A DNA stretch of 39,463 bases, from positions 1-39,463 of IMG/VR virus record IMGVR_UViG_3300044684_000582; one strand, written 5' to 3'. Below, in pieces: positions 14,010 through 31,968 of the stretch. Every line of letters starts with the position of its first letter. The first letter of the stretch is position 1. Made by a program: the position numbers and the translations under genes. The stretch comes from a virus. The notes beneath the pieces were generated by a model that had not been told where the DNA came from, searched no databases, and was given only the letters and a program-made list of their open reading frames with translations.

Positions 14010-14038
14010 TCCCCTATCTACTTCCAAAGAGGTGATGC

Positions 14039-14941: not shown

Positions 14942-14965
14942 GAGAGAATTATATAAAGCATCTCC

Positions 14966-15607: not shown

Positions 15608-15639
15608 AATATATCACCTACCTTTCCAGGGATAGCTTC

Positions 15640-15912: not shown

Positions 15913-16043
15913 CTCCCCTCTTTATTTGTTAAAGTTCATTTATGTTTACTGTATGTATAAATACATTATATATATGTATAGTATCCATGTCAATACAGTA
16001 ACTTTTCTATAGGAATTTGCCACCTTGCAGACTTAAATACTTA

Positions 16044-16072
16044 TTGACGCATACTACATTTATTAGTACAAT
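16044..16072 (+). promoter_or_regulatory. Promoter of the leaderless Xre gene
   Basis: TTGACG (16044-16049), 17 bp and TACAAT (16067-16072). Expected start of transcription is at about 16079, two bases before ATG 16081. Confidence 0.75.
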
Positions 16073-16080
16073 ACTTGCAT

Positions 16081-16311: not shown

Positions 16312-16440
16312 ACCTCATTTCTTCGCCACGTAGCCCGCTTTCAGACCACTGAGAAACAAGAAACGATACTTTATTCGTCTTTGAAAAAATCGCTCGTCCT
16401 GGCGTTTCCTGTGCCACTCTGGTGCTGCTCGTGTGTATGG

Positions 16441-16446
16441 TATACT
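16441..16446 (+). promoter_or_regulatory. Extended -10 box before the OB-fold-like gene
   Basis: TGGTATACT (16438-16446) is an extended -10. The -35 is weak. It lies 14 nt before ATG 16461 with no Shine-Dalgarno, so the leader is about 8 nt. Confidence 0.5.
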
Positions 16447-16460
16447 AAGACACTTCCCCT

Positions 16461-17904: not shown

Positions 17905-18110
17905 CTTTTTGTAGACAAGTGGACAAACATGTTTGTGGGTTTCTCCACTTGTGGGTAAAACCACAAAACTACTTTCAGGTTTACCCACTTGTAGCTTTGT
18001 GTACTTGTACACTTGCGGGTTTAACTGTTTGCTTACTTGTGGTTTTGTATACAAGTAGTTTTGTGTACTTGTGGGTAAAACCACAAAACTACTTGTCTGT
18101 TCTCTCGTGT
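17905..18110. repeat. ACTTGT/CCACAA iteron array, centromere- or origin-like
   Basis: The word ACTTGT (or ACAAGT) occurs about eight times, in phrases such as CACTTGTGGGTAAAACCACA (near 17946 and 18065) and GTGTACTTGTACACTTG (near 17999). The first phrase is itself nearly palindromic. The array lies just 3' of the RHH-protein gene, and the same phrases recur inside that gene at about 18303-18375. Units are not evenly spaced. Clustered iterons next to an RHH protein and an ATPase gene resemble plasmid partition loci. Confidence 0.7.
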
Positions 18111-18142
18111 ATGGGTTTTAAACTTACTATCTGGTAGCGGAA

Positions 18143-18499
18143 CTACTTATTTCTCTCGAAGTATTCTGTAAGAGCTTTTTCTACAACTTCATAATCTTTA
18201 ATATCTTGTTGTACTGCGAACATCTTAATTCTCTTTACCATATCTGGATGAAGATGAGTAGTATATTTCTGAGGTTTCTCATTGATAGGGTGGGGGAGTA
18301 CGCCACTTGTAGTTTTACCCACAAAACCGTTTGTGGGTTTGTGTACTTGTACACTTGTGGGTTTGGCTGTTTGCTTCTTTTCGCGCTGTGGAGCATTTTC
18401 AGCGTATATCTCTTTTGTAGTAGAGGAGGGCAAGACTGTTGGAGAAACAGGCTGTTTTGTTTTTTTCTCTAATTGCATCAGTTCGCTATAGTCTGCCAT
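18143..18499 (-). CDS. RHH-like DNA-binding protein, partition type
   Basis: 118 residues. The C-terminal 40 (TTHLHPDMVKRIKMFAVQQD, then DYEVVEKALTEYFE) read as a ribbon-helix-helix domain: a short strand and two helices. The N-terminal half is Lys/Thr/Gln-rich. Residues about 42-68 (PTSVQVHKPTNGFVGKTTSG) are encoded by the same repeats that form the iteron array downstream, so the repeats have entered the coding sequence or spread from it. It starts 1 nt after the stop of the ATPase gene, so the two form an operon, as in ParA/ParB-like pairs, though the ATPase is not ParA type. Confidence 0.65.
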   Translation of the reverse strand: MADYSELMQLEKKTKQPVSPTVLPSSTTKEIYAENAPQREKKQTAKPTSVQVHKPTNGFVGKTTSGVLPHPINEKPQKYTTHLHPDMVKRIKMFAVQQDIKDYEVVEKALTEYFERNK

Positions 18500-18500
18500 A

Positions 18501-19313
18501 TTATTTTTCTAAATCAAGCTGTTTCGCTGCATAGGTAACTTGCTCAATTCCTGCCTGTGAAAGCTGTCGAAGGTATATATGTCGGAGGATTTCATCAGAG
18601 AGCTTGATTGCATCACGTGGTAAACCTTTTGAATAGGCGAATATTTCTGTAAATGCGTCCTGGGTGAAGGGAATAGTTGATTTATTACCAGATGCGACAC
18701 TCCAGCGGAATCGAAGCATCCCTTCTAGGTCAACGGGTGACATCGGATTTATAGCAATTGGTATCATACGTGATGCAAGCTCTTTGTAGCGTTTTACCTT
18801 GTCTGATAACTCTTCCTGTCCAGTAAGGACAACTTGTAACAACTTCACATCTGAGGTTTCAAAGTTCAAAAGGTAGTGAATGAGTCGGAGAATGTCACGA
18901 GTCATGTTTTGCGCCTCATCGACAAATAGAGTCGGTACTTTTTGAGCCTTGTACTGGTCAACAAGGAATTTTTCAAACAGTTTTAACGAGCGCTCATATG
19001 CTCGGTCTGTTGGGACGTTAAACGCATCCATAATTGCACGAAGAAATGAATTAGCTGCCTTGATATTTGGAGCGATAACCAGGCGTAGCGTATAGGTTTC
19101 ATCCTCACTTAGCTCCTCGTACAACCGTCTTAAAATGCTCGTCTTTCCTGAGCCAATAGCGCCGTACATATAGAGTGGGGCTGTCCGATGTCGTGTCATA
19201 AATTCGACTTTAGCAGTGGCTTCTTTTACTTGCTCATTAAGGTATAGAAAGCGGGGGCTAGGGGAGAGCCTGAATGGTTCTTCATCAAGGTGAAAATAGT
19301 TAAGTAAGTCCAT
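18501..19313 (-). CDS. ExeA/TniB-like AAA+ ATPase
   Basis: 270 residues. It begins MDLLNYFHLDEEPFRLSPSP, a hallmark opening of the ExeA/TniB family. Walker A is GAIGSGKT at 51-58 and Walker B is LFVDEAQN at about 129-136. VVLTGQEEL near 180 and SRMIPIAINPMS match the sensor region. The family includes transposition target regulators (TniB, TnsC-like) and secretion ATPases. Here it is paired with an RHH protein and iterons rather than a transposase, pointing to partition or replication. Promoter 19323-19352 puts transcription start within about 2 nt of the ATG. Confidence 0.82.
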   Translation of the reverse strand: MDLLNYFHLDEEPFRLSPSPRFLYLNEQVKEATAKVEFMTRHRTAPLYMYGAIGSGKTSILRRLYEELSEDETYTLRLVIAPNIKAANSFLRAIMDAFNVPTDRAYERSLKLFEKFLVDQYKAQKVPTLFVDEAQNMTRDILRLIHYLLNFETSDVKLLQVVLTGQEELSDKVKRYKELASRMIPIAINPMSPVDLEGMLRFRWSVASGNKSTIPFTQDAFTEIFAYSKGLPRDAIKLSDEILRHIYLRQLSQAGIEQVTYAAKQLDLEK

Positions 19314-19322
19314 GTAACATCT

Positions 19323-19352
19323 ACTATATTGGTATTTGAGTTAAGTTGTCAA
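19323..19352 (-). promoter_or_regulatory. Promoter of the AAA ATPase-RHH operon
   Basis: On the minus strand, TTGACA (19352-19347), 18 bp and TATAGT (19328-19323), then 9 nt to the ATG at 19313. Leaderless arrangement. Confidence 0.75.
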
Positions 19353-19369
19353 GTAGTATATGTTAATTT

Positions 19370-19945
19370 AGAGAAGTAGGGTATTGACAAACTTATTATT
19401 TAACAATTTGCATAAGAGTACAAAGCACATGATTTTGAAAGTGAACATACCTGTAGGCAGGGGAAGATAAGGCAATACCAAACAAGCAGAGAGAACGCTG
19501 GTTGTACTTACTCCATGCCTACAGGCATGATGTCGTAAGTGATAGAGTTAGGCACTTCCACTAACTCGCTCCTGAGAGAGCTTTTGCTGTCGCTCTTAGG
19601 GGAAAGTATAACAGTGATAACGCTCACATGGTCAAGATGTTACTTTTGAGGAAGTATAAGAAAATTTCTATTCTGGTAGGTATTAGCTTTGTGGGGTGGA
19701 TGTGACTTGCACACATCATGCGTAAACACATTCTATGGCTCGTTTCCGATTCCCCATAGACTTTCAGAGGGTTTGTAGTTTTCACTAGACTTACTCTCCC
19801 GTAAGATTTCAGTCCCCTGGCGGCGTCCTAACGCCGTTTCACCCCTTGCGATTATATCAAAACGTGAATGATGGGAAAGGTTGGACGCATCAAGTACGGA
19901 TGGTGTATGAAGAACATATCAGTGTAAATGAATCTCGAATAATGC
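19370..19945. other. Structured gene-free region
   Basis: About 580 bp with no supported gene but many dyads: CCTGTAGGCA (19450-19459) pairs with TGCCTACAGG (19515-19524); CATGCCTACAGGCATG is a local hairpin; GGCG and CGCC enclose GCGTCCTAA near 19819-19832. The look of the 19440-19860 segment, with short GC hairpins at both sides and no ORF, recalls left and right ends of IS200/IS605-type elements that have lost their genes. That reading is tentative. Confidence 0.4.
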
Positions 19946-19951
19946 TATAAT
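19943..19951 (+). promoter_or_regulatory. Extended -10 promoter, leaderless
   Basis: TGCTATAAT, then 7 nt to ATG 19959. The same TGCTATAAT word precedes several small genes at 24.9-30.3 kb. Confidence 0.7.
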
Positions 19952-19958
19952 ACCTATT

Positions 19959-20576
19959 ATGTATAAACAAAGTAAAAATTCTGGAATGATAATTCTTCCC
20001 CCTTCAGAAGTGATGCCATCAGATGAAGCTAAGCAGAAGGCGCAGGAGTTAGCCAAAGTGCAAGAGCAGATACTAACTTTAAGTACATCGTTTCCTGACA
20101 AGTTCGAAGCGACTGATTTCTCTGCTGGTTCATTTTACTTCAGCCGTGATAAGATGCTTATATTTTTTCAACTAGTGCTAGTCCCTATCTTTTCTCAAAA
20201 AATCACGTCTGTCTCTCTCTCATACCACACGGATAATAAATCTCCTTATGAAGCCTATTTTCAGGGAGGCTGGTGCTTGTCATTATCCATATTTAGCGAT
20301 AATGCATTGCATACAGCTTTTGCCCATTTTATAAAACAGCATCCGAACAAGGATTTTGCTAATACGTTTTATCTGTTTCAAGAGACGGGCAAGTTCGCAA
20401 AAGTGATACGGGTGAAAAAGGAATTTATGGTCGATAGAGGGCTTGTGCTGGATACGAAGCTGTCAAAAGATTATCTTTCAGAAATGACTAGGCTGGATTT
20501 TGACTATGCAGAAAGAGGACTCATGCTTTTAAAAGAAAGACTTGAGGAGAGTATACAGAGACAAAACGATTTTTAG
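19959..20576 (+). CDS. Hypothetical protein
   Basis: 205 residues from ATG 19959, leaderless. After a polar helix (SDEAKQKAQELAKVQEQILT) the middle shows alternating strands (GSFYFSRDKMLIFFQLVLVP; KITSVSLSYH; WCLSLSIFSD), and the C-terminus is helical (DFDYAERGLMLLKERLEES). There is no transmembrane helix of full length and no catalytic motif that I recognise. Monocistronic. The structured element at 20595-20655 lies just after its stop. Confidence 0.6.
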   Translation: MYKQSKNSGMIILPPSEVMPSDEAKQKAQELAKVQEQILTLSTSFPDKFEATDFSAGSFYFSRDKMLIFFQLVLVPIFSQKITSVSLSYHTDNKSPYEAYFQGGWCLSLSIFSDNALHTAFAHFIKQHPNKDFANTFYLFQETGKFAKVIRVKKEFMVDRGLVLDTKLSKDYLSEMTRLDFDYAERGLMLLKERLEESIQRQNDF

Positions 20577-20594
20577 AGTAACAAAAATATGAAA

Positions 20595-20655
20595 ATAGGA
20601 AGACTGGTCTATAAGGACTTGCGCAGGGCAACCGCAAAAGCGGCAATCTTCCTAT
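20595..20655 (+). ncRNA. Compact cloverleaf-like RNA or terminator structure
   Basis: The outer stem ATAGGAAGA/TCTTCCTAT (9 bp, exact) encloses three small hairpins in a row: GTC-tataag-GAC, TTGC-gcagg-GCAA and CCGC-aaaa-GCGG. Almost every base is used. It is not a tRNA by its arm sequences (no T-loop consensus). Placed 19 nt after a stop codon, it could be a terminator-like 3' end, a small RNA or a recombination site. Confidence 0.5.
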
Positions 20656-20693
20656 ACTAAAGGGGACTATCTACAAAGATTCAGTTGTTAGTG

Positions 20694-21014
20694 CTAGTAG
20701 CGTCCATTTCCCTGGAGATTCCTGTTGCGTGACCTTTTTTCTCTACTGCCAGAACCGCCACCTGAGTGACCACCATAGCCGCCACCTGAATGGCTACCAG
20801 AGCCACCACCGGAGTTCTTGATAGCCTGTATCTGCTCTTCAACGGATTGGGCATTGTTCCATATGCCAGAGTTATATGCTTTAAGTTCAGCAATCGTTCT
20901 CGCCTGGGACTCCGTGACTTCACCTTCTTCCATAGCGTCAATATTCTCTCGGTTCTCATGATATTGCTTCATAAGACGTCTCTTTTCGTCTACCAACTCC
21001 TGAAAGCTAGCCAT
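20694..21014 (-). CDS. Helical protein with Gly/Ser-rich tail
   Basis: 106 residues from ATG 21014, after AGAAAGGATG. Residues 1-68 are helical and charged (FQELVDEKRRLMKQYHENRE). Residues about 69-92 are Gly/Ser/His repeats (GGGSGSHSGG, GGYGGHSGGG) and the end is basic (SREKRSRNRN). Such tails are flexible and often bind nucleic acid or surfaces. No family is recognised. The palindrome at 21239-21258 lies 225 bp upstream, too far to assign control safely. Confidence 0.6.
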   Translation of the reverse strand: MASFQELVDEKRRLMKQYHENRENIDAMEEGEVTESQARTIAELKAYNSGIWNNAQSVEEQIQAIKNSGGGSGSHSGGGYGGHSGGGSGSREKRSRNRNLQGNGRY

Positions 21015-21238
21015 TTGTTACATCATCCTTTCTGTAGATGTGTAATACTTAGAACTGATTCAACAATAGACTTTGTACCGTAGCTCTTTAATTTTTTGCA
21101 TGATAGGCAGTGATAAAAACAGCCTAGAAGTTTTATCTTGCATATCAGTAAAAAACGTCCCTTATGAGTCAACGAGCTACTCCATTTATCAAAATGGTTG
21201 GCAGAGTATAGCAAAAGAGGTAACATGAGTCAAATAGT

Positions 21239-21258
21239 GTCATTCAAGTTTGAATGAC
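21239..21258. promoter_or_regulatory. Palindromic operator, copy 1
   Basis: GTCATTCAAGTTTGAATGAC has perfect 9-bp arms. It nearly equals the operator at 23153-23172. The two sites bracket the TrmB-acyltransferase gene pair. Confidence 0.7.
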
Positions 21259-21287
21259 AAAATAACAGTAGGCATGATTTTAAATAT

Positions 21288-22232
21288 TTATGGATAGATA
21301 AGGTGTGTTTTTTCTAGCTCCTCAATGGGCCGAAACGTGTGGTTGAGAAATGTATATGAGCCATCTGTCTCTGTGCCGCCGACATTTGCAAACTGAAAGC
21401 CTGCGCGATATTTCACAAGTAGCGTTTGATGGATGGCCCATACACTAGCAATCTTTGTATCTGGCGTGAAGATTGAGGCCACAAGGGCCGTAGTCCGAGC
21501 GGAAATATCAGACATTGCAGTAAAGCCTACAATTTTATTTGTTGTTACATCTGTGACGACAAATTTATCTATATCAGCGTCCGGGTAGATGGCGTGACTT
21601 GCATAGTACATCCCGGTTTCTTTGCCTGGGGTAGCTTTTGTATTTCCGTCTTTTAATACGAATACCTCTAAAACTGCCTCTTTATCTGCTGCCTGGTATG
21701 GTCGAAGTGTCACCGGGGGCTTTTTGTTCAACTGCCGCTTGAGCTGGTGATACTTCCGGCCTTTCGGGTGTTCAAGCATCTGCAGCTTTACAATTTGCTG
21801 GGGGTACGTCTGGTCGTCAAAACGAGCTGCAGCGCTCCAACGCTCGCCGGCCTGGTACTCCCTAAACCCGTAGGGGAGAAAGGCCGGTATATCCTGGGGG
21901 TTAATATTCTTGAATATTATTTGTGGAGCGTTGAGCGAGCGTTGCACCTGGCGGGCCGTTGCCGCTAGATATGACGGCTCGGCAAAAAATAGGGGGATAA
22001 CAAGGCTAGGGTCTGCGGGTGATTTCCGGCCAAAGAAAATCAACGACCTGGCCGCGCTGTCGTATAGTTTAAACCCTCCGTAGCGTGTCGCCTGGATAAT
22101 ATACCCCCATGAGTCCTCATAATTTTTTGAGCCTGGCCGGAAGTAGTTAACGGTCTTTTGCAAGATTGCCTTATCTGTTGGAGAAATAGGCGTAAGAACA
22201 GCAGGGAAGCGGGTATCATTTGTTTGTTGCAT
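21288..22232 (-). CDS. GNAT-fold acyltransferase, DUF2156-like
   Basis: 314 residues. The layout is two GNAT-like halves. The first (about 28-150) has WGYIIQATRYGGFKLYDSAA and GFREYQAGERW. The second (about 165-310) has KGRKYHQLKRQLNK, a conserved-looking basic motif, and FANVGGTETDGSYTFLNHTF, the substrate region seen in phosphatidylglycerol lysyltransferase-type C-terminal domains (DUF2156). Such enzymes transfer acyl or aminoacyl groups from a donor such as aminoacyl-tRNA or acyl-CoA. It follows the TrmB-like gene by 18 nt on the same strand, so the regulator probably controls it. Donor and acceptor are unknown. Confidence 0.6.
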   Translation of the reverse strand: MQQTNDTRFPAVLTPISPTDKAILQKTVNYFRPGSKNYEDSWGYIIQATRYGGFKLYDSAARSLIFFGRKSPADPSLVIPLFFAEPSYLAATARQVQRSLNAPQIIFKNINPQDIPAFLPYGFREYQAGERWSAAARFDDQTYPQQIVKLQMLEHPKGRKYHQLKRQLNKKPPVTLRPYQAADKEAVLEVFVLKDGNTKATPGKETGMYYASHAIYPDADIDKFVVTDVTTNKIVGFTAMSDISARTTALVASIFTPDTKIASVWAIHQTLLVKYRAGFQFANVGGTETDGSYTFLNHTFRPIEELEKTHLIYP

Positions 22233-22250
22233 ATGGCGCGTAGGTTGTGG

Positions 22251-23051
22251 TTAGCCCTTCCCTTCGGCCTGAACAGGGGGGAGCGTCCGCCAAATATAAT
22301 CAAAGAGGACTTTAAAATTGTTGTATAGGTCGGCGTCTCGATGCACAACGGCGCTAATGGTGTCTTTAAAGTGGATGATGGCGACGTTGTTATCATAGAT
22401 TAAAATATCCTGTGCCGTTAATTGCATGTTTTTAGGGAAATATTTGTAAAAATACCGCTCCGGTGTTCCTGCACCTTCAAAGCGTTTTCTTGCTTCGGGG
22501 GAGTCTTCGACAATTTCAAACATCTGCATATCAGGGTTACGCCTGATAGCCGCGTCAAAAAGCTGCTTATTCTCTGGAAACACTTTTTCTATTTCTGTGA
22601 TATTTACATATGACCGTAGCTCTGACGCCTGCAATGCTTCCTCATAGATTTTTTTGACTGCTGGCTGATGTGTGACATATTTAATTTCAACCTCTCGGCT
22701 GGTTTTTGCTTTTACCCCTGCTGCCAGGCTAGTAAGTGTAGAGAGCATAAGCGGTAAACTATCCGCAACTTCTCGGCTTCTTTTTTCTTTCTGCTGCACT
22801 AGGTAGGGGAGTATTTCCTGTGGTTGGTTGGCTTCAAAAAGTGTTTGTGTGCCGCTCTCAAGCTTGTTGATTAGTCCTTTTTCAATGAGGAGATTAAGGC
22901 CATTATATGCCGAGGTTCGCCGGACGCCCGAAGTCTTAGCCAGGTCGCGGGCATTAACCACGCCAGTTTTTAACAGGCTTATATATATTTTCGCTTCCTG
23001 CTCTGAGAGTCCCAAGCGCTCTAAGTATTCTGTTACATCGTGTTTCATCAT
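22251..23051 (-). CDS. TrmB-family transcription regulator
   Basis: 266 residues. EYLERLGLSEQEAKIYISLLKTGVVNARDLAKTSGVRRTSAYNGLNLLIEKGLI at about 8-62 is the winged helix of TrmB-type regulators. The remaining about 200 residues include a PLD-like sensor part (SELRSYVNITEIEKVF; AQDILIYDNNVAIIHFKD). It is divergent from 23241 with the palindrome 23153-23172 in between, and is likely its ligand. It sits first in an operon with the acyltransferase. The TrmB class is common in archaea and scattered in bacteria. The inducer is unknown. Confidence 0.85.
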   Translation of the reverse strand: MMKHDVTEYLERLGLSEQEAKIYISLLKTGVVNARDLAKTSGVRRTSAYNGLNLLIEKGLINKLESGTQTLFEANQPQEILPYLVQQKEKRSREVADSLPLMLSTLTSLAAGVKAKTSREVEIKYVTHQPAVKKIYEEALQASELRSYVNITEIEKVFPENKQLFDAAIRRNPDMQMFEIVEDSPEARKRFEGAGTPERYFYKYFPKNMQLTAQDILIYDNNVAIIHFKDTISAVVHRDADLYNNFKVLFDYIWRTLPPVQAEGKG

Positions 23052-23152
23052 TCAGATAGATTTAACAGCCTGATTATAGCACTTCTTTTACAGTAAATAA
23101 AGTTGATGATTTTTGACAACATCGTTATCCCATAGAGTATTATTTTAAGTTT

Positions 23153-23172
23153 GTCATTCAGTTTTGAATGAC
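23153..23172. promoter_or_regulatory. Palindromic operator, copy 2
   Basis: GTCATTCAGTTTTGAATGAC lies between the divergent TrmB gene and 23241, ending 4 bp before the TTGACA of the rightward promoter. A bound regulator here would meet RNA polymerase. Same size and arms as copy 1. Confidence 0.75.
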
Positions 23173-23176
23173 AATA

Positions 23177-23205
23177 TTGACAACTCTGCAACGAAGTTCT
23201 ACAAT
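23177..23205 (+). promoter_or_regulatory. Promoter of the three-gene rightward operon
   Basis: TTGACA (23177-23182), 17 bp and TACAAT (23200-23205), a near-consensus promoter. Leader about 29 nt to ATG 23241. Confidence 0.8.
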
Positions 23206-23240
23206 GCTCGTAGCAATATATTTTGCTCTATTTACACTAT

Positions 23241-23504
23241 ATGCCAGAAGAACAATTAAAGCTACTCTTTGATAGCACCCTGACAAAGCAGAACGCCCGC
23301 GCGCGGGGCTTACTTCACGTAACGGACTTAACGCTTAACGAAAAAACGAGAGAAATAGATGAGCCGATGAGGGGGGATGTTCTCCGTATGGTCAATGATG
23401 AGGGTTACAAGATTGGACAACCTGAAACGCCGGGTTTTCCGTTGATGCCCTACGGCTTGTATAAGCCACTAAAAAAACCTGCTCAATCACAAAAGAAGGT
23501 ATGA
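23241..23504 (+). CDS. Small protein, first of three-gene operon
   Basis: 87 residues from ATG 23241; an in-frame TTG at 23223 would add six. The sequence is polar with a central REIDEPMRGDVLRMVNDEGYKIGQP and a Pro-rich end. No domain is recognised. It overlaps the next gene by 4 nt (ATGA-type coupling at 23501). The operon has a strong promoter next to the TrmB operator, so these three small genes are probably the regulated output of that switch. Confidence 0.6.
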   Translation: MPEEQLKLLFDSTLTKQNARARGLLHVTDLTLNEKTREIDEPMRGDVLRMVNDEGYKIGQPETPGFPLMPYGLYKPLKKPAQSQKKV

Positions 23505-23947
23505 CAAAAAGTATTGAAGACTTGCATTTAGAGATAGTTGGAGACTTGCAAAAATGTTTTCTTGCCTATTTGCAAAAACTAGCCCCTACTGCAGATTTCA
23601 GCCATGAGCCGCCGGGCTGGGTCGTCTCGGTGCTTTTGCCTCTTCGTGTTAGCTTACGCCGCTCTCCTGGTAACAAGCTCATTTTAACGGTTGAGAAGAG
23701 GCAAATACTTTACTTATCATCCCAGCAAGCCCAAGTTATAAAAACCTACACCAAAGACAACCGCCTCACCAAAGCCACCGCGATAGTAAAAATACTCAAG
23801 CTCTCATTGCTTACCCATAAAAACCTACGAACAATCACAGCTCTAGAGCAGGCCGAATATGGTAAAAATGTTACAGCCTTCTTAGACATTAAATTGCTGG
23901 GTAAAATAAAGTGGGATGAAAAACACGCCGATAATACAGCAGCATAG
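23501..23947 (+). CDS. Small basic protein, second of operon
   Basis: 148 residues. Helical start (IEDLHLEIVGDLQKCFLAYL), then short strands (WVVSVLLPLRVSLRRSPGNK) and a lysine-rich helical end. There is no signal peptide, membrane helix or catalytic motif. It overlaps the previous gene by 4 nt and the next by 32 nt, a compact arrangement typical of phage-like or element operons. Function unknown. Confidence 0.6.
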   Translation: MTKSIEDLHLEIVGDLQKCFLAYLQKLAPTADFSHEPPGWVVSVLLPLRVSLRRSPGNKLILTVEKRQILYLSSQQAQVIKTYTKDNRLTKATAIVKILKLSLLTHKNLRTITALEQAEYGKNVTAFLDIKLLGKIKWDEKHADNTAA

Positions 23948-24239
23948 CGAGAAGCAACCGGAAACAAAAAGTATCTATGAGGTATTTTTTGCTCTGCCAA
24001 TTGATGACGGCCTAGCGCCTCATACTGCCTATAAGCAGGATTATGAATGGTGCGGGGATGTCGGGCCATACACACCGCCCGCAATGGTCGCGGCTGCGCT
24101 CCTGCTCGTCCAAGAGCACGCCGTTAAACTTGGCCGCTCGCGGGTGGGGGTCTTCGGACGAACAGAGAATGATAGGGGATTATATAAGCCAGTGGAGAAG
24201 TCAAAACCGTTTCTTTCTGGCCTGTTTGGGAAAAAGTAA
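23916..24239 (+). CDS. Small protein, third of operon
   Basis: 107 residues from ATG 23916, inside the 3' end of the previous gene. VGPYTPPAMVAAALLLVQEHA is a hydrophobic helix, probably amphipathic rather than membrane spanning. The end is FLSGLFGKK. No family is recognised. A hairpin repeat (24346-24384) follows 107 nt after the stop and may end the transcript. Confidence 0.55.
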   Translation: MKNTPIIQQHSEKQPETKSIYEVFFALPIDDGLAPHTAYKQDYEWCGDVGPYTPPAMVAAALLLVQEHAVKLGRSRVGVFGRTENDRGLYKPVEKSKPFLSGLFGKK

Positions 24240-24345
24240 CCGCAAAACCGCACTTAACCCTATAGCTTACTGGTGCTTACAGCTTATAGTGGTGCTGGTG
24301 GGGAAAAGTCTCGCCTCAGATGTTTGAAAAATTGCCCTTGTCGTG

Positions 24346-24384
24346 TCGCATACTTTTTTATTGTGCGACATGGAGGCTAGAAAG
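24346..24384 (+). repeat. Boundary repeat R1
   Basis: TCGCATAC, a T-rich middle, GTGCGACATGGAGGCTAGAAAG. The 7-bp stem TGTCGCA/TGCGACA surrounds the T-rich loop. It aligns in order with R2 (28142-28179), R3 (29427-29463) and R4 (30307-30344): TCG(C/T)A at the start, GAC or GGC in the middle, and a GG(C/T)TA-AAAG end. Confidence 0.55.
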
Positions 24385-24404
24385 TCCTGCTATGGGCCCA
24401 TTTT

Positions 24405-24782
24405 TTAACTATGGGACGCCTGGCGCTTCTTGCTTCCCCATATGAAATAGAGCGGAGCAAAAAGAGCAATAAAAAAGGCTGTAGTTGCAAACAAAACATT
24501 TATTACTCCTTTTACGTTTGGAGTAGGATAATAACTCGTTTCTGAACCAAATCCATAAGCGGGTAACTGTTCCGGTTCTACTACCACAGGTGAAACTGTG
24601 GTTCGGTTCGTAAGTCTACAGTCTCCATTAGCGAGTATATGCCTGCATCCGTTTCTTTGAGCCAGTTCATAAGCTGAGTGAGGAGAAGACATAACCATTG
24701 ACAGTCCCAAACCAACAAAGGCTAGCGTGAGTACATACCCGACGATAGCAATTGTTAAGATAATTTTCTGTGCTTTGCTCAC
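24405..24782 (-). CDS. Two-helix membrane protein, leaderless
   Basis: 125 residues from GTG 24782. Membrane segments are at about 9-31 and 95-117, with a loop of about 60 residues holding two cysteines (GCRHILANGDC) that could form a disulfide outside the cell. TGATATAAT lies 10 nt before the GTG, so the mRNA is probably leaderless. The last codons (SKKRQASHS) share sequence with the region after the stop of 29884-30264. Function unknown. Confidence 0.65.
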   Translation of the reverse strand: MSKAQKIILTIAIVGYVLTLAFVGLGLSMVMSSPHSAYELAQRNGCRHILANGDCRLTNRTTVSPVVVEPEQLPAYGFGSETSYYPTPNVKGVINVLFATTAFFIALFAPLYFIWGSKKRQASHS

Positions 24783-24813
24783 TGCTGAGAATATTATATC
24801 ATTCCTCCCCGGC

Positions 24814-24873
24814 CTAGCGCTTCATTAGTTTCTCTCGAAACTGCCAGTAGTTCTCCGCGCGCCTGGCGCTCAC
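24814..24873 (-). CDS. 19-residue microprotein, coupled
   Basis: GTG 24873 overlaps the TGA of the 33-residue gene upstream (GTGA), followed by SARRAENYWQFREKLMKR and a stop at 24814. It is very short and supported only by the stop-start overlap. Confidence 0.25.
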   Translation of the reverse strand: MSARRAENYWQFREKLMKR

Positions 24874-24971
24874 TTCTGCAAGCTGCTTTTTCCTGGCTCC
24901 TTTTTCTTCTGCCAGTCGTTAGCCTGGCCGGCGCGCTCCTGGTTCTGGTGTGGTGGGCCGTAGTTGGTCAT
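24870..24971 (-). CDS. 33-residue microprotein with its own promoter
   Basis: Begins MTNYGPPHQNQERAGQANDW, then KKKEPGKSSLQK; polar and basic. The upstream GTGTGCTATACTTTTCCTAC, 11 nt from -10 to ATG, is nearly the same as that of the DUF5049 gene (GTGTGCTATAATTTCCTTAC), which argues that the start is used. Function unknown. Confidence 0.45.
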   Translation of the reverse strand: MTNYGPPHQNQERAGQANDWQKKKEPGKSSLQK

Positions 24972-25064
24972 GGAGTAGGAAAAGTATAGCACACTTGGGG
25001 GGCAACTCCCGGCGTACTGACAGTAGGGCAACGAGCCGAGCCAGGAGTTGTGCTTTTGTGCGGG

Positions 25065-25280
25065 CTATGCTGCTTTATTGTCTGCTGGGCTACGTTTCGG
25101 TTGGTACTTATCCGCGTAGTGCTCGTAGTTCTTAATGATTTCCTTGCACTCATCAGGGGTTAGTACGTCCTTTGCCAGAGTGATAACATGCTTTATATTC
25201 ATCATGTTAGTTTTGCCGCTCCGGCGTACCTTCTCATATGCTAAAAATTTTGCTTTCGTGATTGCTTGGTGTTGGGTCAT
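25065..25280 (-). CDS. DUF5049-like small protein
   Basis: 71 residues. KFLAYEKVRRSGKTNMMNIK followed by VITLAKDVLTPDECKEIIKNY is the pattern of DUF5049, a short domain found in phages and mobile elements. It has no known activity. TGCTATAAT lies 11 nt before ATG 25280, giving a leader of about 4 nt. Followed by the 33-residue gene, which has an almost identical promoter, so the two upstream regions are probably duplicates. Confidence 0.75.
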   Translation of the reverse strand: MTQHQAITKAKFLAYEKVRRSGKTNMMNIKHVITLAKDVLTPDECKEIIKNYEHYADKYQPKRSPADNKAA

Positions 25281-25768
25281 AAAGTAAGGAAATTATAGCA
25301 CACCTGGCCGGGGCCGGGGTTTGGGAAAGTATCAGTAGTTAATTCTGGTAGCCAGTAGTAACGTCAAGAACGGCTCAACACAAAAATTTATTGCAAAAAG
25401 ATACAAAACCGCAGAGGCAAATTTACATCACTGGCTGAAACAACGAGGTCTCAAAGCAGCAAGAAGTTAAACTTTCTTATTTTACCTTTTCGGTGCCTTA
25501 GTCAAAAATAGCCACGTTCCAAGTCGTTTGCTACGCACAATAAATGATAGGCGACAAAATGGAAAATTTGATTTTAATGAATATGCATGCGTCTTTAATT
25601 AATAGATATCAACACGCCTGAAAAGTGATATATCTACGATGCCAAGCAAAGTTTATTGCTCGATAGATAGGTATAATATTTATTATATGCCTTTACTTGA
25701 TATAACATTTTAAAATAGGTTATACTGCTCTCTAGCAAACAGATGTAACAGAGGACAGGAGTAGCAGC
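25281..25768. other. Gene-free stretch before the TIR genes
   Basis: About 490 bp. GGCCGGGGCCGGGG near 25303 is GC-rich against an AT-rich background. Otherwise only the promoter at 25697-25726 is recognised. Confidence 0.45.
25697..25726 (+). promoter_or_regulatory. Promoter of the first TIR gene
   Basis: TTGATA (25697-25702), 18 bp and TATACT (25721-25726). Leader about 35 nt with GAGGACAGGAG about 8 nt before ATG 25769. Confidence 0.7.
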
Positions 25769-27016
25769 ATGGTTTCTAATACAGCTCCATCAAAAGGAGT
25801 TAAGATATTTTATTGCTATGCTCAAGAAGATAGGAAAGACCGCAACGATTTAGCTCGTCATTTGAGTACATTGCGGTGGAAAGGGCTTATTAAAGAAGCA
25901 CACGACCTTGATATAAGTCCAGGTCAAGAGAGGGAAAAAGAGAGCATAAAACTGTTAGACGATGCTGATATTATTTTGCTTCTGATTACAAAAGATTTCG
26001 TGGATTCATATTATACTTATGAAGTCCAAATGAGGCGAGCGATTGAAAGGCATGAAGCTGGGTCTGCACGTGTTATTCCCATTCTTCTTCGACCTGTTTT
26101 TTTGAAAGATACCCCCTTTAGTGAGCTTCAAGCGCTCCCAACCAACACGAAACCAGTTAGTCTGTGGGTCAATCGGGATCAAGCTTATACAGATATTTGT
26201 AAGAGTATTAGCAAGGTCGTTGATGAGCTTATTGCACATACTGAGCAAAGTCAATCGAAGCAATCTATATCAAAACCTTCTGCTGAAGTGAGTGAGAGAT
26301 TATTGACTGCGCAGTCTGGCAGTATTAACTCTACGTTAGTAGCTGACTACAATACATTTAGTCAATCGTCTCAAAACCCTACTGTTGCAACGCAACAACA
26401 TCTGCAAGAAACTGTCAATAATACATCTTCCCCGCAGAAGCTTCTAAATGAAGAAGAGAGCGATAACTGGTTGCATCTCAGATGGTTAATTTTCGGAAGC
26501 GCAGTTGCAACTTCTTTAGTGTATATAGTGGGACTCGCTTTCCATATGACAGCAATTATCGCGTTGTGCCTTATTCCTGGGGCTATTTGCCTTATTCTGG
26601 GGGTAGTTGAAACCAGTCATTTTAAACAGTGGTATTGGTTGGTAGGCTTCTTAATAATTAGTCCGTTAATAGGTTCATTGTATGCAATAGTGTGTCCTGA
26701 TACACAACCGCAACGACCAATCAACGTGAAACAATTGATAATAATAGTGTCGTTTTTAGGGTATGCCTTTTTTGTTGTCACACTTATCTTCAGTAGTTCA
26801 TTCCAGGTTCTTGCTGATATAACACTGTATATAAGTATAACATTAATTCTTTCTGCTTGGTTAATCAGGCTTATTCATCTCGTTCGATTAAAGAGGCTCA
26901 GCGGTGAAGATGTAGGGGCTTTCTTTTTTCCGTTAGCTATTCCATTTGTAGCGTTGATGGGTCTCTCTAGCTTAGACAGTCAATTAAATGAATTGAAACG
27001 TGAGCAGAATGAATAA
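25769..27016 (+). CDS. TIR domain protein with C-terminal membrane domain (first copy)
   Basis: 415 residues. The TIR domain is about 10-155: KIFYCYAQEDRKDRNDLARH (strand A, helix A), a DADIILLLIT strand, FVDSYYTYEVQMRRAIERHE carrying Glu85 near the expected NADase glutamate, and VIPILLRPVF. A Ser/Gln-rich linker (about 160-225) leads to six or so hydrophobic segments from about 230 to 395. Bacterial TIR domains commonly hydrolyse NAD+ or make signalling nucleotides in anti-phage systems; membrane-bound ones can also be effectors. The exact glutamate position differs from the second copy. A defence role is inferred from the class and the neighbouring HEPN gene. Confidence 0.82.
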   Translation: MVSNTAPSKGVKIFYCYAQEDRKDRNDLARHLSTLRWKGLIKEAHDLDISPGQEREKESIKLLDDADIILLLITKDFVDSYYTYEVQMRRAIERHEAGSARVIPILLRPVFLKDTPFSELQALPTNTKPVSLWVNRDQAYTDICKSISKVVDELIAHTEQSQSKQSISKPSAEVSERLLTAQSGSINSTLVADYNTFSQSSQNPTVATQQHLQETVNNTSSPQKLLNEEESDNWLHLRWLIFGSAVATSLVYIVGLAFHMTAIIALCLIPGAICLILGVVETSHFKQWYWLVGFLIISPLIGSLYAIVCPDTQPQRPINVKQLIIIVSFLGYAFFVVTLIFSSSFQVLADITLYISITLILSAWLIRLIHLVRLKRLSGEDVGAFFFPLAIPFVALMGLSSLDSQLNELKREQNE

Positions 27017-27085
27017 TGAATTTATTAATTTTATGATATAGACATTTTCTCAGTGCAACAGATGTAATGGGAGGGAACAACACTG

Positions 27086-28120
27086 ATGGATGCGATACAA
27101 GATAGCAACAAGCCGATTACCATTTTCTATTCTTACGCTTACGAAGATAAATCACTGCGAGATAAGCTAGCTAAGCATCTAACACTCCTGAAAAGACAAG
27201 GACTCATATCTGATTGGAGTGACCAGAACGTAAGACCAGGGCAGGAAAGAAGAAAAGAAATCAACAAAAATCTGCTGAGTGCTGATATTATTCTCCTGTT
27301 AGTCAGTGCCAATTTTCTGGCGACAAACTATTGTGAGAGCCAAGAAGTTGATATTGCCATGCAAAGACATGAGGCTGGAGAAGCATGGGTTATTCCTATC
27401 CTTGTTCGCTCTGTTGATTGGGAAACATCTTCCATTGGTAAGCTTCAGGCACTCCCTTATAGCCTAAAGCCTGTTGCTAACTGGAATAACAGAGATAGTG
27501 CATTTACAGAGATAAGTAAAAACATTAGAAGTTTGGTGATGGATTTACAAGCTACAAGAAACAATGCTGAAGAAAAAGGCATAGGGGAAGATGCACAAAC
27601 TTTAGCAGAGCAAAGAACAATTAACCATCAAAGAAATAAAAAAAGAGACCTCTACAAAACAATAGCTAAGTCAAATGATTATACATTGGGGGAAAAGCTC
27701 CAACATAAAGTAGGAGTCTTTAGAAAAACTTTTTCCGTTAGAGCTGTAAATAAACGAAGCAAGGGATTTTCCCTTTTACTTCTGTTCTTATTTAGTATAT
27801 TTGACTTATTAGTATTGCCTGTTTTCTTATTCCAATACACAAGGAACACAGCAATAGCAATAACAACTTTTCTTTTATCACTCTTGCTGTTTAGCATGGG
27901 GATAACGAATAAAAACAATATCGTCGCTGCTGCAATAACCTTTGTCTATTGTGTCGTATGGACTATCCTTGGCTATTTATATCTGAGCCCTGCGTATCAT
28001 CTCCACGTCACCTTTCTTGGTGCTCTTCTGATATGTGTCCTTTTTTCCTGTCTCCAGTTAGTATTATTTCACAGCAAAGGCTATCGGAGACGATGGCTAC
28101 CAATCTTTCCTAAAGTTTAG
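27086..28120 (+). CDS. TIR domain protein with C-terminal membrane domain (second copy)
   Basis: 344 residues, a paralogue of the preceding gene. The TIR domain at about 10-155 has TIFYSYAYEDKSLRDKLAKH, SADIILLLVS, NYCESQEVDIAMQRHEAG (Glu84 or Glu87) and WVIPILVRSVDW. A basic linker (RNKKRDLYKT) precedes about four membrane helices (about 228-335). The sequence before its start repeats that before the first copy (AACAGATGTAA, then GGAGG), so a duplication took both gene and leader. The pair has diverged mostly in the membrane part, which may separate two sensors or pores. Probably one operon. Confidence 0.82.
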   Translation: MDAIQDSNKPITIFYSYAYEDKSLRDKLAKHLTLLKRQGLISDWSDQNVRPGQERRKEINKNLLSADIILLLVSANFLATNYCESQEVDIAMQRHEAGEAWVIPILVRSVDWETSSIGKLQALPYSLKPVANWNNRDSAFTEISKNIRSLVMDLQATRNNAEEKGIGEDAQTLAEQRTINHQRNKKRDLYKTIAKSNDYTLGEKLQHKVGVFRKTFSVRAVNKRSKGFSLLLLFLFSIFDLLVLPVFLFQYTRNTAIAITTFLLSLLLFSMGITNKNNIVAAAITFVYCVVWTILGYLYLSPAYHLHVTFLGALLICVLFSCLQLVLFHSKGYRRRWLPIFPKV

Positions 28121-28141
28121 GTTTTCCAGGGATAGATTGCA

Positions 28142-28179
28142 TCGCATAATATGAAAGTATGCGACGTGGTGGCTAAAGG
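28142..28179 (+). repeat. Boundary repeat R2
   Basis: TCGCATAATATGAAAGTATG, then CGACGTGGTGGCTAAAGG. TCGCATA/TATGCGA forms a 7-bp stem. It lies between the 3' end of the second TIR gene and the 3' end of the HEPN-motif gene. Confidence 0.55.
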
Positions 28180-28213
28180 AAATGGCTATAATCCTAACTT
28201 ATAACTTATGGGG

Positions 28214-29332
28214 CTAGGCTGTTGGCCTCTTTAAATAACTACTTTGATATACATTTGAGTCTCGAAATAAATAATAATTTACATATCTTTCTGTTAAATC
28301 TTCTAAGGCTGTTACTTCCTTTTCTCCAGGAATTTTTACATGTATTCTGATATTTGGGTCTCCCCGATGGAGTAATCCGTTTCTAATACCATTAAATTTA
28401 ATAAACGCTTTTATATCTCTCTCATATCCTGACATCTTTGCCCGTTCCGCAAACTGAGTAAACCTGTCTCTCAATGATGGCCTTTGGTTTTTGACTAGCC
28501 TGTTGAGTAAGTTCTTAAGCTCGTTCTTTTCGTTTTCATCTCCATCAGATGCAGCAATGATGCTGTAAAGTTTTTCAGCTTGCCTTTGTTGCTCTTCTGG
28601 CATATTTCCCTCTACTCCTTCAAGTATCATTTCAATGGGAATAAAAAGAGCGTTGAACTTGGAAATAATATCTTGCTCTTTCCATGCACGAATGAGCCAT
28701 CCTAAAATCTGGCTAGCTTTTTCAGCTTCTTCCATTGGAATCTTTCCAATCGCAGGAAAAAATTGGTTAATAATTGTTCTTCCTGTGTCGTTTAGCTGGA
28801 CAGACTCAAGCATTTGAATAGCACTACCAGCAAAGTTTGTCACTCGTTTTTCTCCGTGGAAAGCCACAGGACCATCGTTTAATTCCCTCATAATAAATTG
28901 CGGGTGGAACCGTAGACCAAGTATTCCACTCAACAAATCGAGAATAATTTTATACTCTTCTGCATGTGTTTCTGCTCTTTTCATAAGTTCCTGGCTTGCT
29001 GTTGAGTCGTCGAGATAAAATGCGTCAAAGAGTTCATCCGTAACTTCTTCTGCCTGTGAGCAAATAATTTCCGCAAAAAAGTTTCGGGGATGTGGTGACT
29101 CAGAAGCATTGGCGTGATAGGAATAAGTCCCTATTTTTATCTGTTGACCTGGGATTGCATAGGGTTCATGGTCTGTTTCTGTCCATATTCCCAGTTTAGG
29201 TTTGTTACCTAAGTATATTTCTACTTGAAAAGTGTCTCCAAAGGGAAATGATAAATGTAGGGGTTCCTGAGTTGCGAGAGAGCATCCCATTGAGTCATAA
29301 AGCCGACGATAACCAATATTGATTGTTTTCAT
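28214..29332 (-). CDS. HEPN-motif protein (ApeA-like), possible abortive-infection RNase
   Basis: 372 residues. The C-terminal helical region contains FNGIRNGLLHRG with Arg317-x4-His322, the R-x4-6-H signature of catalytic HEPN RNases. The N-terminal 130 residues are beta-rich (HLSFPFGDTFQVEIYLGN; YAIPGQQIKIGTYSYHANAS) as in ApeA-type proteins, where the N-terminal domain senses and the HEPN domain cleaves RNA. It is convergent with the TIR pair, with R2 between the gene ends. I infer a defence function; nothing in the window proves phage sensing. The 3' end is intact and no frameshift is seen. Confidence 0.65.
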   Translation of the reverse strand: MKTINIGYRRLYDSMGCSLATQEPLHLSFPFGDTFQVEIYLGNKPKLGIWTETDHEPYAIPGQQIKIGTYSYHANASESPHPRNFFAEIICSQAEEVTDELFDAFYLDDSTASQELMKRAETHAEEYKIILDLLSGILGLRFHPQFIMRELNDGPVAFHGEKRVTNFAGSAIQMLESVQLNDTGRTIINQFFPAIGKIPMEEAEKASQILGWLIRAWKEQDIISKFNALFIPIEMILEGVEGNMPEEQQRQAEKLYSIIAASDGDENEKNELKNLLNRLVKNQRPSLRDRFTQFAERAKMSGYERDIKAFIKFNGIRNGLLHRGDPNIRIHVKIPGEKEVTALEDLTERYVNYYLFRDSNVYQSSYLKRPTA

Positions 29333-29426
29333 AGCAATTTAACCTCGTTGTTCCTGAGCTTAATTTTGTTCAGAACATAGTAGTAGTTTTGCTTGAGAAA
29401 AGCAAATCTCTAGCTTGGTTGCAATG

Positions 29427-29463
29427 TCGTACAAGGGTGCTTGGTAGACGCTAAGGTTAAAGG
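29427..29463 (+). repeat. Boundary repeat R3
   Basis: TCGTACAAGGGTGCTTGGTA, then GACGCTAAGGTTAAAGG. The first 14 bases equal R4 exactly. Located between the start of the HEPN gene and the 3' end of the small membrane-protein gene at 29474. Confidence 0.6.
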
Positions 29464-29473
29464 TTGAAATCAT

Positions 29474-29791
29474 TTAATCTCCCCATCTATGCAAGCAGTC
29501 TTCATACCATTGATTAACTAACTCTTCGTCTTGTTTTAGCTCATCATTATATTTCTTGTTTAAAATTGCCATATCTCTAGCTTTTACTGTCTCATCTCCC
29601 ATTGATAAATTATTTTGGTTATATGTGGTCAACTCTTTTATTTGTTGGGTTGCTAAATCATCCAGCAAGCGTCTGCTTTGTGTATCTTTATAGTTTTCAC
29701 AGTACATACGAACAACTGGAGGTCTAATAAAAATAAACAAAATTAAAATAGATGCAACTGTGATTAAAAGACCCTTTAACGTTGTACTCAT
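29474..29791 (-). CDS. Small membrane-anchored protein, leaderless
   Basis: 105 residues from ATG 29791. TGCTATAAT is 9 nt before this ATG, which rules out the longer start at 29815. One membrane segment lies at about 5-26 (GLLITVASILILFIFIRPP), followed by about 80 charged helical residues ending in WYEDCLHRWGD. Single-pass, N-in or N-out not decided. Function unknown. Confidence 0.65.
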   Translation of the reverse strand: MSTTLKGLLITVASILILFIFIRPPVVRMYCENYKDTQSRRLLDDLATQQIKELTTYNQNNLSMGDETVKARDMAILNKKYNDELKQDEELVNQWYEDCLHRWGD

Positions 29792-29883
29792 TGCTCGGAT
29801 ATTATAGCAAACCAACAGTAAGTGTTAAGTTCTCTAGGGTAGGCCGATTATATCACGCCTGGTGCTTTCTGCTTCCCTGGTAG

Positions 29884-30264
29884 CTAGTTCCCATACTGAC
29901 CTTTACATGCTACTAAGGCTCTTGTCTCATCAATCATTTGTTGGTATCGCTGGGCTTGTTCTGTTACTTGTGGAGTAACTTGATATTGCTGCTTTACCTT
30001 TGCAATGCAGTCTGACAACTGTGCGCTATTAGTGGCGGCTGCTACAGATGGTGTTAGAATCTGGTGGCTTGTGGGCGTTATCGTACTCGTAGGCACGATA
30101 GTAGGTGAAAGAGTAAGTACTACTTGCTTAGGCTGTTTCTTCGCCTCTGCCTTTCTCTGCTCCTGTTTGGGAAGGAAAACGACAAAGTAGTAAAAAACAC
30201 TTATCCCTATGAGCAGTACAGCTACTATAAAAGCGAGAAGAGAAGCTATTTTTAAAAACCTCAT
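29884..30264 (-). CDS. Small membrane-anchored or secreted protein, leaderless
   Basis: 126 residues. The N-terminal hydrophobic segment at about 6-30 (IASLLAFIVAVLLIGISVFY) is an uncleaved signal anchor by look. A Lys-rich stretch and a Thr/Ser/Pro-rich linker (LSPTIVPTSTITPTSHQILT) follow, then a small C-terminal domain with two cysteines (LSDCIAKVKQ, LVACKGQYGN) that could pair. TGCTATAAT is 10 nt before ATG 30264. The shape suggests an extracytoplasmic helper; no family is recognised. Confidence 0.65.
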   Translation of the reverse strand: MRFLKIASLLAFIVAVLLIGISVFYYFVVFLPKQEQRKAEAKKQPKQVVLTLSPTIVPTSTITPTSHQILTPSVAAATNSAQLSDCIAKVKQQYQVTPQVTEQAQRYQQMIDETRALVACKGQYGN

Positions 30265-30306
30265 TGTCGGGCTTATTATAGCAGAAGAATACGCGGGCTC
30301 AAAGCA

Positions 30307-30344
30307 TCGTACAAGGGTGCCTAGTCGGCATGGAGGTTAAAAAG
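30307..30344 (+). repeat. Boundary repeat R4
   Basis: TCGTACAAGGGTGCCTAGTC, then GGCATGGAGGTTAAAAAG. Closest to R3. It lies between the start of 29884-30264 and the 3' end of 30353-30619. Confidence 0.6.
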
Positions 30345-30352
30345 ATGGGTTG

Positions 30353-30619
30353 TTAATTTTTCGTTGGGTCGTGGGTTCCTGCTCGCTCCTCAAGATTTTC
30401 AAGGCGTGCTTTTGTAGCAAGATAGTTTTTATTTACCTTTGCTTCTAAATCAAGGATATTGGTTTTTGCCTCTGCTCGTGCGGCTAAAACTTCTGTCCTT
30501 AATTCCTCTTTGGCGTCATTGATTGCACCTTTAAGAAATGTCTCTGTTGTTTTCGCTCTGGCATCAATAAGAGGACTCATGGTTTCAACAATAGCTTGTA
30601 AATCTTCTTTTGTTAGCAT
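30353..30619 (-). CDS. Coiled-coil small protein, leaderless
   Basis: 88 residues, almost all helix: TKEDLQAIVETMSPLIDARA, then a long heptad stretch (EELRTEVLAARAEAKTNILD, LEAKVNKNYLATKARLENLE). It probably forms a homo-oligomeric coiled coil. Upstream are TTGAAA, 17 bp, an extended -10 (TGATAGAAT) and 9 nt to ATG 30619. Function unknown. Confidence 0.65.
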   Translation of the reverse strand: MLTKEDLQAIVETMSPLIDARAKTTETFLKGAINDAKEELRTEVLAARAEAKTNILDLEAKVNKNYLATKARLENLEERAGTHDPTKN

Positions 30620-30643
30620 ATCAGAATTATTCTATCAATAGCA

Positions 30644-30796
30644 TTATTTACTTTCAAGCTGCTGTTTCTGAGAGAACCTTTTATAAATCTCTCTTCTCCT
30701 GGCTCTAACTTCCTCAAGGACTTTCTTTCGCTCCTCTCTGTTCTTGAGCGTGGGGTTTGGTGCTGGCTCTGGTTTAGGTTTACCGTATGCAGTCAT
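30644..30796 (-). CDS. 50-residue basic protein
   Basis: Reads MTAYGKPKPEPAPNPTLKNR, then a helix EERKKVLEEVRARRREIYKR and a Gln/Lys tail, 50 residues. The promoter is near consensus: TTGACA, 17 bp, TACTAT, 14 nt before ATG 30796. The Lys/Arg-rich helix suggests nucleic-acid or membrane-surface binding. The -35 of the next gene (30353-30619) lies in the spacer right after its stop. Confidence 0.5.
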   Translation of the reverse strand: MTAYGKPKPEPAPNPTLKNREERKKVLEEVRARRREIYKRFSQKQQLESK

Positions 30797-30914
30797 AGGT
30801 AAGTAGATTGATAGTAGTTCTGTCGGTGTTTGCTGTCAAGGTGGGAACCTGGCGAAGCCTCTTTCCGCGTAGCGGCTCTCACAAAAATTGAATGTCCGTT
30901 CTAACTTGTGGCAA

Positions 30915-30958
30915 CAAAAAAACGGTAAGGGTAACGTTCTACCCTTACCGCTCCTTTT
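30915..30958. terminator. Bidirectional terminator near the right end of element B
   Basis: CGGTAAGGGTA (30923-30933), loop ACGTTC, TACCCTTACCG (30940-30950): an exact 11-bp stem. On the minus strand it is followed by seven T residues, on the plus strand by CTCCTTTTC. It separates element transcription from the outward promoter at 31004-31032 and would also stop transcription entering from the phage side. Confidence 0.85.
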
Positions 30959-30987
30959 CTTCATCCAATTTCTTGCATATACCCAAA

Positions 30988-31032
30988 TCAGCTAACAAAA
31001 ACCTTGAAATCAGCTAACACTTTGAGTATACT
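30988..31032 (+). promoter_or_regulatory. Outward promoter of element B with direct-repeat operator
   Basis: TTGAAA (31004-31009), 17 bp and TATACT (31027-31032), almost consensus. TCAGCTAAC at 30988-30996 and 31010-31018, 22 bp apart. Nearly the same sequence and geometry as 501-544. It reads across the right junction into the capsid 3' part, with GGAAG about 6 nt before ATG 31090. Confidence 0.85.
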
Positions 31033-31089
31033 GTACTGTAGAAACATCGGTTGTGTATGATGGGTGGATAGATTGAATGGAAGTAGCCG

Positions 31090-31968
31090 ATGAAACAGCA
31101 AGATTTTCCCGTTCCTTTCTCCGGCGAGCTACAAACTGAAGAGCAAACAGCATATCTTTATCAACAATGTCTGTCGTTTGAAAATGTGCTTCTTGTCCCG
31201 ATTCGTGATTTCAAGCAGCAAACGCGTGTGCGCCTGGGAGCCTTTGGCAGCTTGCCAATCGTGGCCGAAGACACAGCCTACACCGCCGTTACCCTGACCG
31301 ATAGTGCCGCCACCTATGTCCCGCAGAAGCGCGGCAACCTCGTGACGGTCAGCCGCGAAACCATCATCAACGACGATCTGCAGGCCATCAAACAGATCCC
31401 GACCAAACTGGCTGTGGCGGCGGCCTATACTCTGGCCGAGTTCGTTTATGGCTTCCTTTCCGGCAATCCCGTCATCTACGACGGCAGCACGCTCTTTACC
31501 ACAGGCGCGCCTCACAACAACCTGGGCTCATCGAATCTCAGCACCACGGCCATGCAGAGCGGCATCACCGCCATGCGCGAACAGACCAACTTTGCAGGCA
31601 AGCGCCTGGGACTGCGCCCGCGCTTCCTGGTCGTCCCGCCGGAACTGGAATGGACCTCCATGGTCGTCACCAAATCGGCGGGCGTTCCCGGCTCCAACAA
31701 CAACGACATCAACCCCATGCTCGGCTACGTCCAGCCCATCGTCTCGCCCCAACTGACCAGCCCTACGCAATGGTTCCTGGTTGGCGATCCTCGTGAGATC
31801 GACACTATAGAGGTTGGCTTTGTAGGAGGGCAGGTGCATCCTATACTACTTGTGCAAGATAGCGCTTTGATCGGGCTGAATTTCACTCAGGATATAATCT
31901 CTTATAAGTGTAGGCATGAATACGGAGCTTGTGTAACAGATTATCGTGGATTGTACCGAGGAGTTTAG
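31090..31968 (+). pseudogene. Major capsid protein, 3' part, fused to element B start codon
   Basis: 292 residues. Residues 1-37 are element sequence (from MKQQDFPVPFSGE). From Ile38 the phage capsid resumes: IRDFKQQTRVRLGAFGSLPI, then VTVSRETIINDDLQAIKQIP and the end NFTQDIISYKCRHEYGACVT. This is the C-terminal half of a Mu gpT-like capsid protein. The stop is intact. The outward promoter and a GGAAG site allow translation of this chimera while the element is inserted. It lacks the N-terminal part of the capsid fold, so assembly is doubtful; a partial product could instead poison a related phage's capsid, which is speculation. Confidence 0.85.
31197..31201. other. Right attachment core (attR) of element B
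   Basis: Second copy of CCCGA. To its right the sequence is immediately GC-rich capsid coding (IRDFKQQTRVRLGAFG). To its left lie about 105 bp of element sequence that is open in frame with the capsid from ATG 31090. Confidence 0.6.

Follow-up and report, generated by a model that had tools for sequence, protein, structure and literature searches.

The right end of a 27.2 kb element that splits a phage capsid gene is best explained, with a probability of about two in three, as the tail of the recombinase gene that the element itself carries, severed at an attachment site (attP) lying within that gene, with a promoter directed outward across it and with no conserved keeping of the interrupted gene's frame. 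The element (3983..31201) interrupts a head-protease/major-capsid fusion gene in a 39,463-base IMG/VR record, the whole of which is referred to here as the window. An initial annotation had read the same end as supplying a promoter, a ribosome site and an in-frame start codon to the cut capsid gene. That reading stands in so far as the element splits the gene and carries an outward promoter-like site and an in-frame start, but the end itself is better explained as a detached recombinase 3′ end.

The Element and the Gene It Splits

Joining the flanks of the element at its 5-bp core, CCCGA, yields an ORF of 739 codons with no internal stops, so that the empty site can be restored on paper. Aligned over 684 positions with the uninterrupted gene of a related contig, L003, the joined ORF shows 76% identity, and intact homologues of the fusion gene are found in L003–L023. 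The cut falls at codon 483 of 739, and a profile alignment to solved gpT-like capsids indicates that the severed capsid part lacks about the first 40 residues of the gpT-like domain. An AlphaFold model for this capsid domain reached a pLDDT of only 48.8, a poor value, and was left unused. The G+C profile gives about 0.43 in the element vs. about 0.55 in the phage module. Cargo genes encode two Replic_Relax proteins, an ATPase with weak matches to TraD, an AAA ATPase, and two TIR proteins; the latter are adjacent (25769–28120) and match ThsB (Thoeris) models. Coordinates are collected in Table 1.

Table 1. Features of the two element ends and the interrupted genes in the window.
Feature	Coordinates	Strand	Description
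Primase-polymerase, N-terminal part, second element	1..459	-	PDB primase matches, E 1e-19
Second promoter/repeat block	475..555	+	At end of second element; homologous to capsid-site block
Severed portal 3′ part with leader	610..1176	+	55 in-frame leader codons (610–774); AGAGGAG ahead of ATG 610
Detached recombinase tail, second element	689..781	-	HLPDCQVYTVPQKTHEAIMRMQSICEKLAS, then stop; homologous to the far-end tail of the G028 element
Fusion gene, 5′ part	2538..3987	+	Frame continues within element, stop ending at 4046
Large serine recombinase	3973..6000	-	PF00239 Resolvase and PF07508 Recombinase; phrog_95 integrase
Integrated element	3983..31201	.	5-bp cores CCCGA at 3983–3987 and 31197–31201, inside protease-capsid fusion gene
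Terminator-like hairpin and T run	30916..30950	-	-25.5 kcal/mol, z -6.0; about 60 nt beyond tail stop
Two direct repeats, TCAGCTAACA	30988..31019	+	22 bp apart; overlap promoter-like site; operator-like
Outward promoter-like site	31004..31032	+	TTGAAA (31004–31009), 17 nt, TATACT (31027–31032); 10/12 sigma-70-type match
Inferred recombinase C-terminal tail	31010..31201	-	63 codons in free-circle frame, GQEAHFQTTDIVDKDMLFALQFVARRRKERENLAVSS...QSVS; stop TGA 31010–31012
Chimeric ORF	31090..31968	+	ATG 31090; 36 element codons (31090–31197), then capsid codons
Fusion gene, 3′ part	31197..31968	+	PF25209 and PHROG matches; most of Mu gpT-like major capsid domain

Among viral contigs, L002 is 100% identical to the window over 6.5 kb and may not be independent of it. 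Two others (L005:1 and L021:1) have their ends precisely at the capsid crossover, which would fit a site polymorphic for insertion in their populations.

The Right End and Its Chimeric Reading Frame

The sequence elements that the initial annotation listed at the right end are all present, namely TTGAAA and TATACT spaced by 17 nt, GGAAG, ATG 31090, 36 in-frame element codons, and a capsid frame that runs to its natural stop. The shared codon CCG directly follows the 36 element codons, and the resulting ORF of 292 aa, which closes with the stop ending at 31968, matches Phage_capsid_4 over residues 37–290. Sites matching the sigma-70 consensus at 10 or more of 12 positions number 21 in the capsid-site element, both strands taken together. 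In Markov-resampled versions of the end, an in-frame ATG arises by chance in 27%, any in-frame start in 53%, and an ATG with a SD-like 4-mer in 2.5%; given these levels, the arrangement is mildly unusual and not extreme. Judged by its sequence, the promoter-like site may be active, and re-expression of the severed capsid part in the window is plausible. The TCAGCTAACA repeat pair also occurs at 500–531, and so at both element ends in the window, as a possible operator pair for a regulator. A leftward role for the promoter block was considered and set aside, as it has no good -35 box in that direction and the right copy runs straight into the terminator.

A Recombinase Frame That Crosses the Junction

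The ORF of the capsid-site recombinase extends 10 nt beyond the core, placing its last codons and its stop in capsid DNA when the element is integrated. The recombinase would measure 675 aa in this integrated form and 734 aa at full length. The same is seen among its relatives: the recombinase ORF enters the target by 7–17 nt past the core in all five pairs measured (those of the window capsid-site element, denoted W in the pair comparisons, and of G028, G026, G037, and G035), and it likewise crosses the junction in an insertion into rtcB and in G003. If the two element ends are joined on paper into a circle, the recombinase frame runs on into the opposite element end for 22–63 codons. The longest of these extensions is that of the capsid-site element, for which 63 open codons have a chance probability of 0.024, and the 36 leader codons of the chimera are antisense to it. 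Just beyond the stop of the tail, W, G026, G035, and G037 each carry a hairpin and T run, as read from the sequence in all four and folded for W.

The tails of elements at the portal site are significantly similar to one another (window left, HLPDCQVYTVPQKTHEAIMRMQSICEKLAS; G028, LHLPAYQVNTVLDESDDILMRMQSIRDHLVS...; G003, LLAYQFPKVFGGLDTLLLRMSAICTALPHSISV). None of 1000 shuffles was as similar as the window-left tail is to that of G028, and these two differ 9, 5, and 13 times at the first, second, and third positions, respectively, of the tail codons. In G028, the target-strand frame opposite the tail contains a stop. Compared by sequence alone, the capsid-site tail does not significantly resemble the others (p 0.09 against G028, p 0.43 against a helix profile), and so we infer this tail from its position, its open frame, and the terminator.

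The following sequence of events is proposed. In a free circle, whose existence is presumed from the sequence, the recombinase would read across attP, gain its C-terminal tail, and stop ahead of the terminator. Integration into the capsid gene would sever the tail, which would stay behind on the minus strand of the right end, from 31201 to about 30916, together with the terminator. What reads as 36 element codons would then be the opposite strand of the tail, by chance free of stops and continuous with the capsid frame. An outward and possibly repressed promoter block, with its operator-like repeats, would point across the tail and could give antisense RNA to the recombinase in the circle, and read-through into the target when the element is integrated. 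Because the promoter block shared by the two window ends is directed outward over the tail, both severed parts, that of the capsid gene and that of the portal gene at the left edge, may undergo some transcription and translation.

A Second Element End in the Portal Gene

The left edge of the window holds the end of a second, different element that interrupts the portal gene, as judged from a leader boundary at nt 775, from which onward most portal relatives align, and from the primase-polymerase lying upstream. Its promoter block (475–555) is 79% identical over 81 bp to the block at 30963–31043 and matches the consensus at only 8 of 12 positions. The 5′ UTRs of the two window ends are also alike (an equal or higher score in 5 of 2000 shuffles), which suggests that the start codons ATG 31090 and ATG 610 may be homologous; at the peptide level, the leaders of the two ends cannot be aligned. 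Among viral contigs, the promoter pattern recurs only in L002, at a locus identical to part of the window, and the block is absent from all 47 relatives' genomes searched. Looser matches to it in other genomes look like chance and were discarded.

Relatives in Ktedonobacteria and the Fate of the Reading Frame

A scan of viral contigs with the recombinase as query returned no relatives. Related recombinases occur in 19 of 47 genomes of the class to which Ktedonosporobacter rubrisoli belongs (Ktedonobacteria), where the targets are the coding parts of conserved genes: rtcB, portal, ureC, a zinc alcohol dehydrogenase, a cystathionine-synthase-like gene, an RND transporter, nth, and a PNGase-like gene (some of these names were assigned by eye from the sequence). 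The portal gene is hit at the identical residue in G028, G003, G031, and the window. Portal interruption is recurrent, being seen in G028, G003, G031, G035, G036, and G040 (loci L096, L105, L099, L179, L181, and L176, respectively), and portal halves lying on one contig are 20–224 kb apart, the largest distance being that in G028. The orientation of the insertion varies (G031, G035, G036, and rtcB), and the recombinase adjoins the 3′ half in G031 and in the rtcB insertion. About half of the 47 genomes carry the portal and capsid genes, mostly in single copy, many intact and some decayed. They form either a conserved prophage or a gene-transfer-agent-like cluster; no conserved host flanks were seen around it in the 47 genomes. 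In G026, 67 kb separate the two halves of ureC, and within this stretch lies an intact ureC copy (L194, G026:C2:1989470–1991416), directed toward the severed 3′ half at a distance of about 240 bp.

Frames were compared at nine tail-side ends that adjoin a severed 3′ half, both window ends included. A SD-like site with an in-frame ATG is present at three of the nine, the window capsid end, the window portal end, and the ureC end of G026, where GAGGTGG precedes the ATG. Two more have an in-frame ATG without a SD-like site (the portal end of G040, which belongs to a different recombinase group, and the PNGase end of G035), and the ends of G036 and G037 offer only a GTG. An in-frame start is missing at the remaining two, the portal ends of G028 and G003, which share the same portal site and have homologous tails. 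An in-frame ATG at five of nine ends gives p 0.06 against the 27% expected, and any in-frame start at seven of nine gives p 0.12. The combination of SD and ATG at three of nine, compared with 2.5–7% by chance, gives p 0.001–0.02 depending on the base rate, in a count made post hoc.

The initial annotation had asked whether frame is always kept in this family and had held that relatives out of frame would speak against its reading. Frame is not always kept: the closest portal-site relatives (G028 and G003) lack a start and orientation varies, whereas both window ends are in frame, so that the earlier reading is contradicted in part. As judged from these sequences, keeping the target frame is not a function that the recombinase family conserves.

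Alternative Explanations

The outward promoter may primarily serve the element, producing antisense RNA to the recombinase across attP in the circle, with capsid read-through as a by-product. This is a possibility of some weight, although we would not bet on it; it concerns the job of the promoter and is compatible with the severed-tail explanation. In the circle the promoter would face the 3′ end of the recombinase across attP, repeats within and upstream of it suggest repression, and the block is conserved despite different targets. However, that block is absent from the 47 relatives' genomes, and its left copy is the poorer match to consensus described above.

A less probable account, which we consider doubtful, is selected re-expression, in which the end evolved to give the cut gene a promoter, a ribosome site, and an N-terminus, keeping the late genes or the capsid domain expressed. 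It is favored by the promoter block and UTR that two different window ends share while both being in frame, by the GAGGTGG and in-frame ATG at the ureC end of G026, and by the 36 codons that would substitute for the roughly 40 missing N-terminal residues of the gpT-like capsid protein, and it has precedents in SXT/prfC and IMEVchUSA3/dusA (PMC8409611). Conversely, G028 and G003 have no start at the same portal site, the excess of ATG reaches only p 0.06, the cuts are mid-gene so that the native protein is not restored, and insertion orientation varies. Some selection for re-expression may nevertheless have acted, because SD with ATG at three of nine ends exceeds chance. A further reading appears improbable, in which the element ends make the protease-capsid fusion gene and, through the second element, the portal gene into separate subunits under operator control, each with an N-terminus supplied by the element, and in which integration concurrently truncates the recombinase by removing its tail.

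The initial annotation also raised the idea that the chimera acts as a dominant-negative capsid fragment against resident or related phages. The chimera does retain most of the gpT-like capsid domain, and the element carries two ThsB-like TIR genes, but the leader is not conserved, many relatives cut non-phage genes (rtcB, ureC, and others), and there is no second capsid-site insertion for comparison; no support for such a role was found, and we regard it as very unlikely. An assembly artefact joining element to phage sequence is scarcely credible even for a metagenomic contig, given the core common to both junctions, the intact gene restored on joining, the identical junction in L002, the contigs L005 and L021 that end exactly at the crossover, and the same layout in bacterial genomes.

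Comparison with Known Systems

Re-expression of a cut gene by an element end is described for the ICE SXT in prfC and for IMEVchUSA3 in dusA (PMC8409611). The window element ends resemble these in a predicted outward promoter followed by in-frame N-terminal codons. They differ in that SXT and IMEVchUSA3 use tyrosine integrases and insert at the extreme 5′ end, giving a near full-length product, whereas the window element has a large serine recombinase and cuts deep within its gene. Moreover, dusA expression was demonstrated by experiment, while the window chimera is predicted from sequence, and a frame kept across related insertions is not a property of the window element's family.

A parallel to the recombinase itself is phage Mx8, in which attP lies within int and integration creates a new int 3′ end and an altered specificity (PMC6070905); SSV-type integrases also extend across attP (PMC4383910). 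Like Mx8 int, the recombinase gene would contain attP and acquire a new C-terminus on integration; unlike in Mx8, the lost tail, followed by a terminator, would be found at the other end of the window element. A limited literature search found no description of a large serine recombinase with attP inside its own gene. Mx8 Int is of the tyrosine type, and the window recombinase has serine recombinase domains. XisF and the fdxN-type elements share with the window element a serine recombinase and the interruption of a conserved gene. The window recombinase, however, matches the XisF model (NCBIfam NF041201) only weakly, at 53 bits, far below the cut-off of 375, and its element carries TIR and transfer-type ATPase cargo.

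Implications

Caution is due where an insertion junction offers an in-frame start, since such a start can be the antisense shadow of a different gene. Of greater interest than the start codon is a recombinase family with attP in its own gene, together with the repeated interruption of portal and capsid genes within a single conserved head module. Genome engineering draws on large serine recombinases as major tools, and how their direction is controlled is an active question; a natural family that loses the recombinase C-terminal tail on integration would directly test how the C-terminus sets direction.
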